Positions 53,017-59,595 of a DNA stretch of 64,000 nt are shown here, one piece after another. A model generated the notes under the pieces. It saw nothing but the letters and a program-made list of their open reading frames with translations. It was not told the DNA's origin and ran no database searches. Within the stretch, counting starts at the first letter, position 1. The number at the start of each line of letters is the position of its first letter. Source of the stretch: Nitrospira sp. (GTDB lineage: Bacteria; Nitrospirota; Nitrospiria; Nitrospirales; Nitrospiraceae); contig JACOEL010000022.1 of assembly GCA_024998625.1 (NCBI GenBank), positions 1 through 64,000 on the forward strand, read 5' to 3'. Both the position numbers and the translations under genes were made by a program.

Positions 53017-53046
53017 ACTGTCCTTCCTGCGCGGCACGATATCGTG

Positions 53047-54198
53047 ATGCAGAGCCGGAATCAGGTGGTCCTGGTTATCGCTGCGATCCTCTTCCTCATC
53101 GTTATGGTGATGGAATGGATGTTCCCGCTGAATGTGGTCGGCGCATTTGGTTTTGTGCTCCCGATCTTGCTGGTGGCCACCGTCAGAAACCGGCGACTCA
53201 TGATCTTGACGCTGGCGCTGTGCATCCTGGTGACATTTATCGGACTCTTCCAGCCCGGCAAGAAACGGGAACGGTTCACCGCCGTCGTGTTCAATCGCAT
53301 TATGGTGGCCTGTGTGTTGACCGGCGTGGCCTATATCGGCGTGACATGGGAGGAGCGAAAAGCCCGCGAAGAAGCCGTCAAGGCCGCGCTGGCGACGCAA
53401 ACCGAACACCTGTTGCTGGCGAATACGCAGTTGGTCGAGATTAAAGATAAGTTGGCGCGATCGGAACGGCTGGCGGCCGTGGGGCAGTTGGTGGCGTCGG
53501 TGGCGCATGAAGTCGGCACACCGTTACATTCGATTGCCTGGCATGTGGAAGCGCTGGCGGAGGAGCCTGGTGTCACCCCTGCGATGCAGAAGCGAATCGG
53601 TATTATCGATGAGCAGTTGAATCGCGTGGTGCGGATCATTCAAGATCTCCTATCGTCTACCAGGCAACGCAAGCCTGAGCCGACATGGTATCCGGCGGAA
53701 CGCCTGATCGAGCCGGTCGTAGCGCTGATGGAGCCGGGATACCATGCCAAGGGTGTGACGCTTCACACAGAGGTGGCGCCGGCTCTGCTGGTGTGGGCTG
53801 ATGCCGAAAAGATCCACCAGGTGTTGGTCAATCTCCTGAGCAATGCGCTTGCGGCCACCGGGGCCGGGGGCTGTGTCACGGTCGCCGTGGTCATTCGTCA
53901 GGCTTCAGCGGAGGAGATGGAGAGCGCGTCCTGCACGGGTCGGTCCGATCTCGGTACGGTGGTCACGCTGGTGGTGAGTGACTCAGGCTGTGGGATGCCT
54001 CGGGAGGATGTCGAGCGAGCCTTCCAACCGTTCTTCACCACAAAGGCGGTGGGCAAGGGAACCGGGTTGGGTTTGTTTCTGAGCCGGGAGGCTGTGTCTG
54101 CTCACGGCGGCCGATTGACACTAGACAGTGAGGTCGGCAAGGGCACGACGGTGACGGTAGTGCTGCCTGGTTTGCCGTCCGACTCGGCTGCGGTATAG
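53047..54198 (+). CDS. sensor histidine kinase (NtrB-like)
   Basis: Three to four hydrophobic segments in the first 105 residues anchor it in the inner membrane. HisKA has its phosphoacceptor near residue 154 (AHEVGTPLHSIAW), followed by the N box (SNALAATGAGG) and the GTGLGLFLSRE motif. No PAS or HAMP is evident. The following regulator gene starts 22 nt later, so the two form a two-component system. Confidence 0.85.
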   Translation: MQSRNQVVLVIAAILFLIVMVMEWMFPLNVVGAFGFVLPILLVATVRNRRLMILTLALCILVTFIGLFQPGKKRERFTAVVFNRIMVACVLTGVAYIGVTWEERKAREEAVKAALATQTEHLLLANTQLVEIKDKLARSERLAAVGQLVASVAHEVGTPLHSIAWHVEALAEEPGVTPAMQKRIGIIDEQLNRVVRIIQDLLSSTRQRKPEPTWYPAERLIEPVVALMEPGYHAKGVTLHTEVAPALLVWADAEKIHQVLVNLLSNALAATGAGGCVTVAVVIRQASAEEMESASCTGRSDLGTVVTLVVSDSGCGMPREDVERAFQPFFTTKAVGKGTGLGLFLSREAVSAHGGRLTLDSEVGKGTTVTVVLPGLPSDSAAV

Positions 54199-54219: not shown

Positions 54220-55614
54220 ATGAGTCAGGCCAAGTTATTCGTAGTGGATGACGACGAGGCCGCCAGGACTTTGTTGGCGGAAGCGCTGGAGAAGGAGGGC
54301 TATGAGGTGGAGGCCTTTTCCAGCGGCCAGGCTGCGGTGGAACGCGGCAAACAATCGCGGGCCGATGTCGTCCTGACCGATATCCGGATGGAGCAGGGCG
54401 ACGGATTTCTCGTGTTGAAGGAGTTCAAGAAGTTCAGCCCGGACACCTCGATCGTATTACTGACCGCGTTCGGATCTCTGGAGGGCGCGATCGAAGCAAT
54501 CAAGCAAGGGGCCTACGACTACCTGGCAAAGCCGTTCAAGAGGGACGAGATCCGTCTCGTCGTCCAGCGCAGCCTGGAGCATTGTCGCCTGGTGCGGGAA
54601 AACGCCCGCTTTCGCGAAGATGCGCGCGCACGCGAACCCTGGTCACAGTTGGTCGGCAGCAGCCCGGCAATGCTGGAGGTGTATAAGCTGGTGGCCCGTG
54701 TTTCCGAGGGGCGCAGCACGGTGCTCATTGAGGGAGAAAGTGGAACAGGGAAAGAACTGATTGCGCGGGCTGTCCATTCGAATAGTCCGCGTCGCGACAA
54801 ACCGTTCATTCCGGTCAATTGCGGTGCCTTGCCCGACCATCTTCTGGAGTCGGAAATGTTCGGATATGAGAAGGGCGCGTTTACGGGCGCCGTCGGGGCC
54901 AAAGCCGGGCTGTTCGAGGCCGCCGATGGCGGCACGCTGTTTCTCGATGAGATCGGCGACCTTGGTCAGGCGCTTCAGGTCAAGCTCCTGCGGGTGATGC
55001 AAGAGCACGAGGTGCGGCGTGTCGGCAGTACGGCATCGGTGAAAGTCGATGTGCGCATCATTGCCGCGACCAATCGGGATCTGGCCACACTCGTGAAGGA
55101 AGGCAAGTTTCGCGACGATTTATACTATCGTCTCAATGTGGTGCGGATTGTCCTGCCGTCGCTGGCGGAGCGGCGTGAGGACATCACGATGCTCGCGCAT
55201 CACTTTCTGCAAAAATACGCCAAGCAGTCGTTGCATGTGAGAGGATTCTTGCCGGAAACGATGGCGTTGTTGAAGCGCTATCACTGGCCGGGGAATGTGC
55301 GTGAATTGGAGAATGCGGTGGAACGAGCGGTCTCGCTCAGTCATGGTCCGCTGCTGTTACCCGAAGATCTTCCCGAGTCGATCAGGGTTGAGCCGGATTC
55401 AGGTGAGCTGCTTAAGGGGCAACCCGCCGAGGGAGGTCAGGACGCCCTGTTGACCTTAGATGAGGTCGAGAAACGGCACTTGGCGCGGGTGCTCAAGGAG
55501 ACGCGAGGAAACAAGGTCAAGGCGGCGAAGATTCTCGGGATCGATCGGCGGACGTTATATCGAATGGCGGAGCGATTCGGATTGGATTTCGGCGATGAGG
55601 CCGAGGAGAAATAG
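54220..55614 (+). CDS. NtrC-like sigma-54-dependent response regulator
   Basis: The 464-residue protein has a receiver domain (phospho-Asp in VVLTDIRMEQGDG near residue 53), the sigma-54 AAA+ domain with Walker A GESGTGKELIAR, an intact GAFTGA loop, Walker B GTLFLDEIGD, and a C-terminal Fis-type helix-turn-helix (KVKAAKILGIDRRTLYRMAE). It should activate sigma-54 promoters when phosphorylated by the preceding kinase. Its targets are unknown. Confidence 0.88.
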   Translation: MSQAKLFVVDDDEAARTLLAEALEKEGYEVEAFSSGQAAVERGKQSRADVVLTDIRMEQGDGFLVLKEFKKFSPDTSIVLLTAFGSLEGAIEAIKQGAYDYLAKPFKRDEIRLVVQRSLEHCRLVRENARFREDARAREPWSQLVGSSPAMLEVYKLVARVSEGRSTVLIEGESGTGKELIARAVHSNSPRRDKPFIPVNCGALPDHLLESEMFGYEKGAFTGAVGAKAGLFEAADGGTLFLDEIGDLGQALQVKLLRVMQEHEVRRVGSTASVKVDVRIIAATNRDLATLVKEGKFRDDLYYRLNVVRIVLPSLAERREDITMLAHHFLQKYAKQSLHVRGFLPETMALLKRYHWPGNVRELENAVERAVSLSHGPLLLPEDLPESIRVEPDSGELLKGQPAEGGQDALLTLDEVEKRHLARVLKETRGNKVKAAKILGIDRRTLYRMAERFGLDFGDEAEEK

Positions 55615-55621
55615 GACGATC

Positions 55622-56068
55622 CTATAATAGTCGAAGCGCATTCTTGAGTAGGCGAATTTCGTTCGCGGCACTTTGCGGCAGCGGGGTTTCTGCATCCTCC
55701 CACGAATCGAAAATCCCGTCTTTCCCGCGATGAAACACTTGCAGCCGTAATCGTGTGGTGCTGTCGTCTTGCGGGACGATCCGTGCCTCGACCCGAGTCT
55801 TCCCTACGCCGAATCTCCAGTGCAACAGTCCGTTCCAGGGGCTTCTGATCTCCTGTCGCATGCCGGTCGTGAGGTGGCCGGTCTCATCTTGGTCGACCGT
55901 ATAGCCCCCTTGAGTCAGGACATCGGACAGTGCCGTTTTCACCTGCTCGGCAGGAACCGGCAGTGTCACCTCCATCACATCGGGCTCCGGGGCGGGTGGG
56001 CCCCCCGCACATCCGGCGAGCGCTGCGACGAGAACGAACGCCCTGAGGCCAGTGACACAGGTACTCAT
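55622..56068 (-). CDS. small lipoprotein, 148 aa
   Basis: Lipobox LAGC (near residue 20) follows a signal peptide. The mature protein is an alpha/beta fold with repeated strands (TTRLRLQVFHRGKDG), vaguely resembling BamC-type or DUF3576-like lipoproteins; I do not assign it. The ATG overlaps the stop of the RAM-domain gene by 4 nt (ATGA), so the two are one transcript. Confidence 0.65.
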   Translation of the reverse strand: MSTCVTGLRAFVLVAALAGCAGGPPAPEPDVMEVTLPVPAEQVKTALSDVLTQGGYTVDQDETGHLTTGMRQEIRSPWNGLLHWRFGVGKTRVEARIVPQDDSTTRLRLQVFHRGKDGIFDSWEDAETPLPQSAANEIRLLKNALRLL

Positions 56069-56319
56069 TTCGGCTTGCCCTCCTGAAGGCGATAGACCAT
56101 GTGCGTATCCGTCTGATCGACACCGGGGATGGCGTGAATTTTTGCGAGCACGAGTTGGGTCAATGCGTCCTGGTGGGGAATTTCAACGATGGTGAAGATG
56201 TCCGGCTTTCCCCAACAGGGGTCGATTTGTTTGATTTCCTTAATATCTCCGAGGGATTTGACGACATCAGCGGTTTGGCCGGGATGAACATTGATCAATA
56301 CGTAGGCTCGGTCCGGCAT
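56065..56319 (-). CDS. stand-alone Lrp/AsnC ligand-binding (RAM) domain protein, 84 aa
   Basis: The sequence MPDRAYVLINVHPGQTADVV through IVEIPHQDALTQLVLAKIHAIPGVDQTDT matches the ferredoxin-like RAM domain of Lrp/AsnC regulators, without their helix-turn-helix. Such single domains may bind amino acids or other small molecules. It is coupled to the lipoprotein gene by a 4-nt overlap. Confidence 0.8.
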   Translation of the reverse strand: MPDRAYVLINVHPGQTADVVKSLGDIKEIKQIDPCWGKPDIFTIVEIPHQDALTQLVLAKIHAIPGVDQTDTHMVYRLQEGKPK

Positions 56320-56443
56320 GTAGTGAGTCTCCCGTGAGGTGGTGTGGCGTCAACGCTCGCACGAATCGAAACCTAGCGGATTGCTCCGGATGAAGTCAAC
56401 AGAACACACCTAGCTCGGGCAGGATGGCCGGCGTCACGCGGTA

Positions 56444-58114
56444 TTACTTGGGAGCCACGATGACTTCTACTCTGTAGGTGTCGCCGACTGTCGAAAGATC
56501 TGCTTCCAACCCTCGGGGGTTGCCCACTCGCCCGTCAGGATCGTAGATGAAGCACAACAACGTGGCTCCGTTCGGACGTCTGGAGTAATGGGCTTTGTCT
56601 GTTGCGATCTGCTCGGCGAGGTCTCTGTTCGTCAATCCTGAGCGGGTCTGTTTAACTACCACCACCGTTTTTCCCCAGTCGAGGAGATAGGTCGTCCGGC
56701 GAGCGCCGTTGGCATAGGGAGGGGTCGATTCTTCCGTGCCCACCTCATCGAATTGCAACCGGAGAAGCGCGTTAAACAGGTCCTGCAGATCATACTCGTC
56801 CATGATTTCCAGTGTAGGCCGGTATTCTTTTCGTAGCCGTAGTTGTCGAGCGACCAGGTGGAAGCGCGCACACATTCGACGGAGTGTATCGAGTGTTACG
56901 GCCTCCGATTGATGGCTGTTCATATTCGTATCCAGCGGCGTGGTGAGCGCCGTTGGTGTCTCCGGTGGTTTGGCGGGAGATACCACAGGCGGTTCCGGTT
57001 TGGACTCTGGGGCTGATGCGAGGGCGGGCATTGCTCGTGTGAGCGAACCCTCGGTTTGAACTTCGGGAACGAGCGGCTGAGCGTCGCGCGCTTGTTTTTC
57101 TGCTGCTATCTCGGTTGTGGCTTGGCTTGCCGGAATCGCCGCAACGGGGGCTGCAGCCGGTTTGGGGGCCAGGCTGTCTGTTGGCTTGGAGGCCTGCGGC
57201 GGTGTCGGAGAGGGCTCGATAGGAGCAGTCGGCATAGGTGTTGAGGAGGGATTTATTCGTGGAATGGGTGGAATGGTTCCCGATGGAATCGTGGATCGCG
57301 TGGGCGTCATTGCCGGCAGTGGTGTCGGGCCGGCCTCCCCGCGCACTGTCTGCTCCGAGGGCATTCGGCTATTCGTTGATGGTGCGGCGAAAACAGGTTC
57401 TGGGGGCAGTGATGGCGGAGCGGGCGGGGGGGCCGCCGCAACTTTCTCAGCCGGGATTCCGGAGGCTTCAGATGTTGCGGAGTGCAGCGGGGACAGGCGT
57501 TGTATCGATGTATCGCGAATCGGTTGGGAGGCGGAAATGGACGTGACGGGTGTTGCCATAACGATCGGAGCGATGGGCTGATCGGGTCGGCTGACGCTCG
57601 TCGTCCTTGCTATTGAGGCAGTTGTCGGAGCGCTGGTCATACTGACGGTTGCGAGGGGGGCGGTGTTCGGAGACTGGGGTGGCGCGATTGGAACAGCGGG
57701 TTGACTTGAAGGAACTGCCGTCAGCATGGGGCGTTCAGAGGTTGCTGGCGGAGATGGCGCGGTTTCGGGCGGTGTGAGGCCTAAAAGCTCTGCCTTCTGA
57801 TGCTCCAGTGCGACGATCAATTCTTTGAGCAAAGTGGTGCTCTGTGCGGACTCCGTGCGGTTGCCGATTCGGAGCTTGTGATTCTTGTGTGCCTGGTATT
57901 CCGGCGACTTTTCGCCGAACAGTCGCCGGATCGATTCCCGGAAAGAAAGTTCGGTTCTGGCGCGGACTGCGTCACGATACGGGAATCCATCTCTGCTCAG
58001 GTCATCGATCTGTGTGCTCAGTTCACGCAACGTGGTGATGCCGCGATTGAGTTCTTCGATGGCGTTCTGTTTCGATCGGGCGCGTTGCGGTTCGCTTGCT
58101 CTCGCTCGTGCCAT
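56444..58114 (-). CDS. proline-rich protein with C-terminal degenerate PD-(D/E)XK-type domain, 556 aa
   Basis: Three parts can be seen: a helical N-terminus (about 1-115; SFRESIRRLFGEKSPEYQ), a disordered, Pro/Thr/Ser/Ala-rich linker (about 120-395), and a C-terminal alpha/beta domain (about 400-556). The last resembles, from memory, DpnII/MboI-like PD-(D/E)XK domains found in many bacterial proteins: SRVDFLL-type strand, VIEVKKTR strand, then CFVYDPEGxIxNPxGLExDL. Here those read RRTTYLL and VVVVKQTR, so the Asp and the first Glu are lost, while Lys (about 488) and CFIYDPDGRVGNPRGLEADL are kept. It is probably not a nuclease. Role unknown. Confidence 0.6.
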   Translation of the reverse strand: MARARASEPQRARSKQNAIEELNRGITTLRELSTQIDDLSRDGFPYRDAVRARTELSFRESIRRLFGEKSPEYQAHKNHKLRIGNRTESAQSTTLLKELIVALEHQKAELLGLTPPETAPSPPATSERPMLTAVPSSQPAVPIAPPQSPNTAPLATVSMTSAPTTASIARTTSVSRPDQPIAPIVMATPVTSISASQPIRDTSIQRLSPLHSATSEASGIPAEKVAAAPPPAPPSLPPEPVFAAPSTNSRMPSEQTVRGEAGPTPLPAMTPTRSTIPSGTIPPIPRINPSSTPMPTAPIEPSPTPPQASKPTDSLAPKPAAAPVAAIPASQATTEIAAEKQARDAQPLVPEVQTEGSLTRAMPALASAPESKPEPPVVSPAKPPETPTALTTPLDTNMNSHQSEAVTLDTLRRMCARFHLVARQLRLRKEYRPTLEIMDEYDLQDLFNALLRLQFDEVGTEESTPPYANGARRTTYLLDWGKTVVVVKQTRSGLTNRDLAEQIATDKAHYSRRPNGATLLCFIYDPDGRVGNPRGLEADLSTVGDTYRVEVIVAPK

Positions 58115-58220
58115 GTGTCATATCCTTCTGTTGAGAAAGTCTATCCAAGCGGGTGATGTCTGGCAAGAAATCCCTGCTTCTATCCGTGAGTCGAGAGGCA
58201 GGGACGGGTGGCGCAGGCGG

Positions 58221-58721
58221 TTAGTCAACCCACTCGACATCGCCGTTGCCGGGCTGCGTTGCGCTTTTCTGATCGGGAGTGGCGGGAGGGCCGGCTAAGA
58301 CCTCTCGCACCAGTGACAGCAGCATTTCGCTGGTAAAGGGTTTCTTGAGAAAGGGTAATCCCGCTCGCACGAGGCCGCGATTCTGTAACTCAGAACCCGG
58401 GCTGCCGGACATGAATAGGACGCGGATCTCGCGCTTGTCTTGCAGGAGCCGCTCAACCATGTCGCGACCGTTCAAGCGGGGATAGGGGTTCTTGTCGACG
58501 GAAAGTTGGAAGTCCGGTGGGGGCAAAAAGACATCGGCAATCACGAGGTGGATCGGGCCGGGGTGTTCCGCATAGAGTCTGAGCGCTTCGGCACTGCCCG
58601 GTGCCTGGAGCACCGTGTAGCCGGCATTCCGCAATGGTTTGGTACTGACAAGAAGGGCGCCGGGGTCGTCGTCGACTATCAAGATCGTCGAAAGCTGTTT
58701 TTCGTCGGGGGCCATGGCCAA
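58221..58721 (-). CDS. single-domain response regulator with an insertion, 166 aa
   Basis: A receiver domain with the acidic pair (DDDPGALL), phospho-Asp in VIADVFLPP and the Lys of LKKPFTSEM. After the phospho-Asp loop there are about 15 extra residues (DFQLSVDKNPYPR) before the usual NGRDMVERLL. No output domain is present; it must act by protein contact or in a phosphorelay. It stands alone among exported-protein genes. Confidence 0.8.
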   Translation of the reverse strand: MAMAPDEKQLSTILIVDDDPGALLVSTKPLRNAGYTVLQAPGSAEALRLYAEHPGPIHLVIADVFLPPPDFQLSVDKNPYPRLNGRDMVERLLQDKREIRVLFMSGSPGSELQNRGLVRAGLPFLKKPFTSEMLLSLVREVLAGPPATPDQKSATQPGNGDVEWVD

Positions 58722-58752
58722 CTCCTCTGTTCGGTGTCCGTATCACGAGGCC

Positions 58753-59595
58753 TCAAAACGGAGGGTGTTGCTCCTTCAATCGTTCGTATTCGCGTTGCTC
58801 GCAACTGCCATGTCTGGGGCGAAGGGATTCAGGGACCTCCGCGAAACGGATGGTGCAATAGCGCTTGGCCTGGCGCCGCCGATCGAGGTCTTGTTGTTCT
58901 TCGAGTTGCTGAAGTCGAACGGTGAGGTTGATGGTTGGAAGGTCTTTGCCCGCCGGATTGTCTTGGCGTGATGTCATCGGTTCGTCTTCACTGGATTTGG
59001 GGTGGGGGCCGTTCAATCGCCAGCGGGTCAACACATCGTCCTGATTGAACACAATGATCAGTCCGAACTGGGAGTAGTCCCAGATCAGTTCCCCCTGCTC
59101 CGGGCGTGCCCAGATGGAGCGAGGCAGACCGTATCGATTCCAGATCTCGTCACGCAGCATGCCCACCCGTGGTGTGAGGTTCCGGATCGCCGTGATCTGC
59201 GCCTGTATCGGAGAAATGTCTTTCTGTTTCCCGGGACTGCTGTGTCTTGAGAGTGATTCCAGCGCGGTGCGCGGCACGCGCAGCAATCGCCACACCGTGA
59301 TAAGCCCCTGCGCGCAGTCAGCCGGATACAGATCTTCGAAAATCATCTGCGTATCGATGGGAAAGCCGCCGACTTCCTGGGTACGTGTGAAATTTTTGAC
59401 CTCTTGGACGGCGGCGACGTATGCGCGTTGGCGCCCGTCTTCCACATTAGGGGCACATGAAGCTCGCCCTGTGAAGAATACGTCATCCCCGAAGTGAAAG
59501 AGCGCTTGTTCGGTCCAAAACGGACGATTCTCCACAGCCTGTGCCGCAGAGGTCACCGCAAGACTCAATAATGTGAGGAGAAGGTAGTGAGCCAT
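58753..59595 (-). CDS. exported hypothetical protein, 280 aa
   Basis: I start at the ATG at 59595 where a signal peptide (ending SAAQAVEN near residue 20) begins. The mature protein has no domain I know. Two cysteines near the middle (NVEDG, DCAQG) and two at the end may form disulfides. The C-terminal third is charged and helical. Function unknown. Confidence 0.6.
   Translation of the reverse strand: MAHYLLLTLLSLAVTSAAQAVENRPFWTEQALFHFGDDVFFTGRASCAPNVEDGRQRAYVAAVQEVKNFTRTQEVGGFPIDTQMIFEDLYPADCAQGLITVWRLLRVPRTALESLSRHSSPGKQKDISPIQAQITAIRNLTPRVGMLRDEIWNRYGLPRSIWARPEQGELIWDYSQFGLIIVFNQDDVLTRWRLNGPHPKSSEDEPMTSRQDNPAGKDLPTINLTVRLQQLEEQQDLDRRRQAKRYCTIRFAEVPESLRPRHGSCEQREYERLKEQHPPF

Follow-up and report, generated by a model that had tools for sequence, protein, structure and literature searches.

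A core Nitrospiraceae protein with an apparently inactivated DpnII-MboI-type nuclease domain on a long disordered tether

The open reading frame at positions 56,444–58,114 (minus strand; P0001) of the window, the 64,000-nucleotide stretch of Nitrospira sp. DNA analysed here, is intact (556 aa plus stop) and encodes a restriction-type nuclease domain that appears to have lost its catalytic acids. The product consists of a basic N-terminal tail (residues 1–18, MARARASEPQRARSKQNA; 58,061–58,114), recognised from charge counts in orthologs, a four-helix N-terminal domain (residues 10–111; 57,782–58,087), a Pro/Ala/Thr/Ser linker predicted to be disordered (residues 112–396; 56,927–57,781) and an apparently dead PD-(D/E)XK domain (residues 397–556, with PF18742 at 410–556; 56,447–56,926), all encoded on the minus strand. 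In a full-length AlphaFold2 model, built on a 58-sequence alignment, confidence is high for residues 10–111 (pLDDT mostly 87–96) and for the C-terminal domain, and low from residue 112 to about 396 (mostly 42–56); residues 1–10 have a mean pLDDT of 46. Besides these values, composition (62% Pro+Ala+Thr+Ser over 285 aa) and dN/dS mark out the linker. The first-pass annotation had described it as unusually long, at about 275 residues; the linker is indeed long, but its length is 285. Searches with the full protein gave no match in NCBIfam, and none was found for the pseudonuclease in phage records.

Fold and active site of the C-terminal domain

Residues 410–556 match Pfam PF18742 (REase_DpnII-MboI; E = 1.9e-49, 167.5 bits against a cut-off of 27) from position 2 to position 150 of the 150-position profile, in keeping with the first-pass annotation, which had likened the C-terminal ~150 residues to DpnII/MboI-type nucleases. 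PF04556, to which we take classical DpnII to belong, gave no match in the Pfam search. AlphaFold2 predicts an alpha-beta-beta-beta-alpha-beta order for the domain (helices 440–454 and 496–510; strands 458–463, 473–478, 483–489 and 518–524), with pLDDT of about 95 across most of it; folded alone, it has a mean pLDDT of 88.7 and a pTM of 0.85. The top solved structure found with VIA-align 2 is BstYI (Z 7.8, rmsd 4.1, 126 aligned), with BglII also matched (Z 7.7, rmsd 4.8, 132 aligned), Z values that are moderate and not far above those of the remaining structural matches. BamHI (Z 6.7, rmsd 4.7, 139 aligned) and McrC (Z 6.5, rmsd 4.5, 117 aligned) are matched as well; all four are restriction-type PD-(D/E)XK nucleases, and the top of the list is made up mostly of PD-(D/E)XK proteins, with RPB5-like subunits there too. 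Foldseek returned nothing at E ≤ 0.001, nor did a sequence search of solved structures at E ≤ 1. Given the moderate Z values and the Foldseek result, the fold assignment rests jointly on the Z values, the match to PF18742 and the order of the strands, which point to a PD-(D/E)XK fold. BstYI, BglII and BamHI recognise sites with a GATC core; the window protein resembles them in predicted fold, at those moderate Z values, and differs in sharing 6–10% identity with them and in lacking the catalytic acids.

By alignment, the Asp of the ‘RMDFLL’ motif of intact family members, which binds metal, corresponds to Thr475 (R473-T474-T475-Y476; codon 56,690–56,692, minus strand) and the Glu of ‘VELKK’ (E-x-K motif) to Val486 (codon 56,657–56,659, minus strand), while the basic residue is retained as Lys488 (codon 56,651–56,653, minus strand). 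The same replacements, and the kept Lys, are seen on the PD-(D/E)XK fold predicted by AlphaFold2, so that the earlier proposal of a domain that had lost its metal-binding Asp and Glu and kept its basic residue stands. D, E and K are present in 14/14 other family members, comprising nine near relatives (seven from plasmids, two from Nitrospira) and five distant ones from Nitrospirota genomes (L077, L084–L087). Among 83 Nitrospiraceae orthologs, Asp475 is kept in ten, Glu486 in two and both in none, with Lys488 kept in 76. Thirteen columns are acidic in 9/9 intact near relatives: 11 of them are still acidic in 76–100% of orthologs, and only two have collapsed (12% and 2%), these being the catalytic pair, which random loss of two among thirteen would strike 1 time in 78. 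Presence of both acids in 0/83 orthologs and 14/14 other members, with dN/dS of about 0.04–0.19 in both domains, argues for a loss beyond chance. Residues invariant in intact and dead proteins alike number 14 (R428, R432, D439, D442, D445, L451, P465, T490, D506, Y524, D525, P526, G528 and P533). Judged by its sequence, the window protein lacks the strand-2 Asp and strand-3 Glu-x-Lys expected of an active PF18742 nuclease and would be classed as a pseudonuclease, with its catalytic residues gone and the protein apparently under purifying selection; we infer that it no longer cuts.

Conserved acids elsewhere in the fold, which might have spoken against this reading, do exist (D439, D442, D445, D506 and D525), but these are equally conserved in the intact nucleases and so are not substitutes. 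Acids newly conserved in the dead clade, and mostly not in intact nucleases, are E430, D498 and E550; position 430 looks as though an adjacent acid had moved by one residue, 550 belongs to the last strand and 498 is at the start of the helix following E-x-K. Some restriction enzymes (Cfr10I type) have a shifted acid at the corresponding place in that helix, and position 498 is acidic in 78/83 orthologs versus 3/9 intact nucleases, including six orthologs that keep D475 and lack E486. Catalysis might thus be retained, mainly in D475-keeping branches, if the Glu of E-x-K had moved to 498, but we regard this as very unlikely: acidity at 498 does not follow Glu loss, since the position is acidic in both orthologs that keep Glu486 and non-acidic in four that keep Asp475, and D475 is gone in 73/83 orthologs, as in the window protein, with no evident replacement acid.

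The N-terminal domain and probable ancestry

The N-terminal domain matches the N-terminus of a HEPN/Ymh protein with 98.7% probability (hhalign), and this in turn matches the N-termini of intact DpnII-MboI nucleases with 92% probability, whereas direct comparison of the pseudonuclease with intact nucleases in this region is weak (44% probability, E = 2.4e-4). The idea that its helical segment is common to such nucleases therefore gains transitive profile evidence, by way of HEPN/Ymh. The domain has no match in Pfam at E ≤ 10 and none in plasmids, and helical-bundle structural matches (best Z 10.9) were discounted because bundles of this kind are common. It is confined to these same ORFs except for one weak match and one HEPN/Ymh fusion. 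The fusion, from genome G086 of genus g3 (L129:6077–7063, minus strand), joins the same N-terminal domain to Hypoth_Ymh (PF09509, E = 2e-34); it is like the pseudonuclease in the N-terminal domain and unlike it in that a C-terminal HEPN domain replaces the nuclease domain.

Candidatus N. defluvii encodes an intact DpnII-MboI-type nuclease (L003:1156–1947, plus strand; 264 aa, with D, E and K present) composed of the N-terminal domain and an active-type PF18742 domain, and also carries the dead protein. An intact 264-aa DpnII-MboI-type nuclease with D, E and K is found in one more Nitrospira genome (L002:1156–1947, plus strand), so that across these genomes the intact enzyme accompanies or replaces the dead protein. 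Compared with PF18742 nucleases such as that of N. defluvii and one from a Klebsiella plasmid (L103), the pseudonuclease is alike over the whole C-terminal domain, including the invariants except the acids, and has a related N-terminal helical domain. It differs in the loss of both catalytic acids, in the insertion of the ~285-residue disordered linker and in its basic N-terminal tail, which averages about 4.8 K/R versus 1.3 D/E in orthologs and is absent from the intact nucleases of L002 and L003; it is also a core chromosomal gene, whereas theirs is a mobile one. Enterobacterial DpnII-MboI-type nucleases at two plasmid loci (L106, L107) are labelled ‘malate dehydrogenase’, apparently in error.

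A 2013 survey (PMC3710099) described exchangeable helical N-terminal domains across REase, HEPN and Abi conflict-system proteins; among them is the DpnII/MboI-NTD, a helical domain of ~100 aa with which DpnII, MboI and defence proteins begin, and Ymh is listed as a HEPN family. Taken with the N-terminal domain links described above, this makes it likely that the ancestor was a mobile defence-type nuclease.

Distribution, loss of the acids and gene neighbourhood

PF18742 is matched in 28/29 genomes of the genus (G024 by its intact relative only) and in 146/175 Nitrospiraceae genomes (101/114 good ones; 18/22 genera), and hardly occurs elsewhere in the phylum. The Candidatus Nitrospira defluvii ortholog is 92% identical over the C-terminal domain. 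The pseudonuclease gene is a core gene of Nitrospiraceae. Pairwise dN/dS within the genus is 0.05–0.19 for the N-terminal domain, 0.04–0.19 for the C-terminal domain and 0.35–0.74 for the linker; values that are low in both domains and higher between them indicate that the protein is functional and its tether under loose constraint. Co-occurrence of the dead protein with an intact 264-aa relative in N. defluvii (L003) would fit a role in inhibition or immunity, with mixed dimers formed with incoming active DpnII-MboI nucleases, or shielding of sites, protecting the host. Such a role is nonetheless highly improbable, as an intact relative is seen in only 2/29 genomes of the genus whereas the dead gene is core and, unlike a mobile gene, has a constant copy number and locus.

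In a FastTree tree built without the three catalytic columns, the 83 Nitrospiraceae proteins group in a single long-stemmed clade (support 0.81). Deep branches, for which support is modest, differ in the acid retained: Asp is kept and Glu lost in g136, g138, g141, g143, g12, g6 and the second g142 copy, and Glu is kept and Asp lost in g10 and g140. Both acids are lost in the remaining large clade. As different acids are missing in different deep branches, they were probably lost repeatedly from an active ancestor; a single early loss of Glu followed by two single-step reversions could also yield this pattern, V to E and Q to E being possible as single-base changes. The estimated linker has a median of 94 residues in one-acid branches (range 39–189, n = 10) and of 219 residues where both acids are lost (range 104–304, n = 69). 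Genomes of genus g142 have two copies each (L116/L117, L118/L119), one of which is linked to a RAM gene (see below) and lacks both acids, while the other keeps Asp475 and lacks Glu486.

The gene order is family-wide, with malQ, a histidine kinase (53,044–54,198, plus strand) and an NtrC-type sigma-54 activator (54,220–55,614, plus strand) on one strand and, on the opposite strand and convergent to the NtrC side, a lipoprotein-like gene (55,622–56,068, minus strand; 148 aa), a RAM gene that it overlaps (56,065–56,319, minus strand) and the pseudonuclease. The RAM gene, downstream of the pseudonuclease, encodes a stand-alone Lrp/AsnC ligand-binding protein of 84 aa (PF01037, E = 6e-10). A receiver-domain protein (58,221–58,721, minus strand; 166 aa, PF00072) lies just upstream of the pseudonuclease, mainly in genus g1. 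RAM and pseudonuclease genes adjoin in 24/25 syntenic loci read. RAM orthologs without the pseudonuclease are found in g3, g144, g145 and some g4 genomes, and g10 has the pseudonuclease without an adjacent RAM gene; throughout the family the RAM protein is conserved at this locus, including in genomes that lack the pseudonuclease. An obligate RAM–pseudonuclease pair (a split Lrp/AsnC-type regulator) was rejected, as RAM occurs without the pseudonuclease and the two are not always adjacent, and because the pairing is not obligatory, co-regulation of the pseudonuclease with neighbouring genes is offered only as a suggestion. In g3 and g145 (L132, L133, L135, L138), the slot upstream of RAM holds not a diverged pseudonuclease copy but an unrelated membrane protein, which looks DUF4124-like by eye.

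A likely promoter for the pseudonuclease (TTGCCA, 17 nt, TAGACT, then a 23-nt leader; 58,138–58,166, minus strand) starts 52 bases upstream of the ATG. It is the sole sigma-70-like site in 55,500–58,800, yet one is expected there by chance; the arrangement TTTCTTGcCAG...TAGACTT recurs 5′ of orthologs in g1, g2, g4, g5, g7, g9 and g139.

The adjacent GATC DNA methyltransferase expected of a classical DpnII/MboI restriction-modification system was not found, no methyltransferase being present among ten Pfam-scanned neighbouring proteins (50.7–63.4 kb); one weak MethyltransfD12 match lies elsewhere in the genome. GATC sites in the window are not depleted (504 observed versus 501 expected), and neither this count nor the methyltransferase scan supports GATC avoidance or marking.

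An anti-phage sensor, whose dead domain would recognise foreign or modified DNA and whose N-terminal domain would trigger a response, could be expected from the place of HEPN/Ymh and such helical N-terminal domains in conflict-system repertoires (PMC3710099) and from PADLOC matches to ‘Aga_Helical-REase’ models. Defence genes are usually patchy, however, whereas the pseudonuclease gene is core, syntenic and vertically inherited; its neighbours are of a housekeeping kind (malQ, two-component system), no recognisable effector adjoins it, and we consider the sensor quite improbable.

Proposed history and function

In the explanation that we favour, the ancestor would have been a restriction-type nuclease with a helical N-terminal domain and a DpnII-MboI-type PD-(D/E)XK domain, which entered the chromosome of a Nitrospiraceae ancestor and was then inherited as a core gene. 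The catalytic acids would have been lost afterwards, in an order differing between branches, with the fold, the retained Lys and other family-invariant residues held by purifying selection while the two domains became separated by a growing disordered tether. Less certainly, the C-terminal domain may still bind its ancestral ligand, for which DNA is the most likely candidate, and recruitment or sensing of a partner may fall to the N-terminal domain across the tether. As a whole, this explanation, of a domesticated restriction-type nuclease that would now serve as a non-cutting, DNA-bound adaptor or regulator, seems to us about evenly poised between right and wrong. Tentatively, a mobile defence-type nuclease may have been domesticated once, in the ancestor of the nitrite-oxidising Nitrospiraceae, and have lost its activity in several independent events; the outcome would be a DNA-binding regulator, or a tether organising the chromosome, that derives from a restriction enzyme and is core to the whole family. 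The binding or sensing role put forward in the first-pass annotation is plausible, and the protein most likely binds or senses something, probably DNA, rather than cutting.

Retention of nucleic-acid binding is suggested by the keeping of Lys488 and of all other family-invariant residues. With a mean net charge of −1.4 (−3.1 in intact nucleases), the C-terminal domain lacks a basic character from which DNA binding might be deduced; near-neutrality speaks neither for nor strongly against nucleic-acid binding. The dead domain could instead be a protein-protein module without nucleic-acid binding, in a pure scaffold whose linker brings two partners together. The near-zero net charge would suit a scaffold, as would E550, which reverses a basic residue of the intact nucleases, and pseudoenzymes are often regulatory and non-catalytic (PMC5106787). 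We hold this to be rather unlikely, because the 14 shared invariants and Lys488 (76/83) have been kept, which suggests that the old ligand surface is still used.

Binding of nucleic acids by a dead nuclease domain, as in the explanation favoured here, has precedents. Inactivated PD-(D/E)XK domains were presumed to bind nucleic acids in a 2005 study (PMC1189080), of which the archaeal COG1395 C-terminal domain is an example: the nuclease fold is kept and the active site lost, in a different family and architecture, and the available portion mentions no long disordered tether. Fungal Ssd1/Dis3L2 (PMC8097288) offers a likeness in that a nuclease with a conserved second function became a conserved non-cutting protein, now RNA-binding, with the active site lost several times independently; it is unlike the pseudonuclease in its unrelated RNase II fold, its RNA binding and its eukaryotic hosts. 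Dead PD-(D/E)XK domains are thus already known, and what is new here is that the protein is core across a whole family, that its domains are joined by a long disordered tether and that intermediate states survive. We know of no report of a Nitrospiraceae pseudonuclease family. A literature search of incomplete coverage returned no paper naming DpnII-MboI or TIGR02391 and no useful one tying Nitrospira to such a protein.

Eukaryotes offer known cases of inactive nucleases with new roles, and bacteria and archaea have stray domains of this kind. Direct tests of the predictions (that the protein does not cut, that it still binds and that the linker can or cannot be dispensed with) are feasible, and the gene is of small size. 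The main nitrite oxidisers are among its hosts, as are comammox bacteria, and many core genes of these organisms have no known function. If the explanation proposed here is true, a restriction-type nuclease would have become a vertically inherited core protein of a whole bacterial family, and the intermediates in living genera would form a rare stepwise record of the taming of a defence enzyme.
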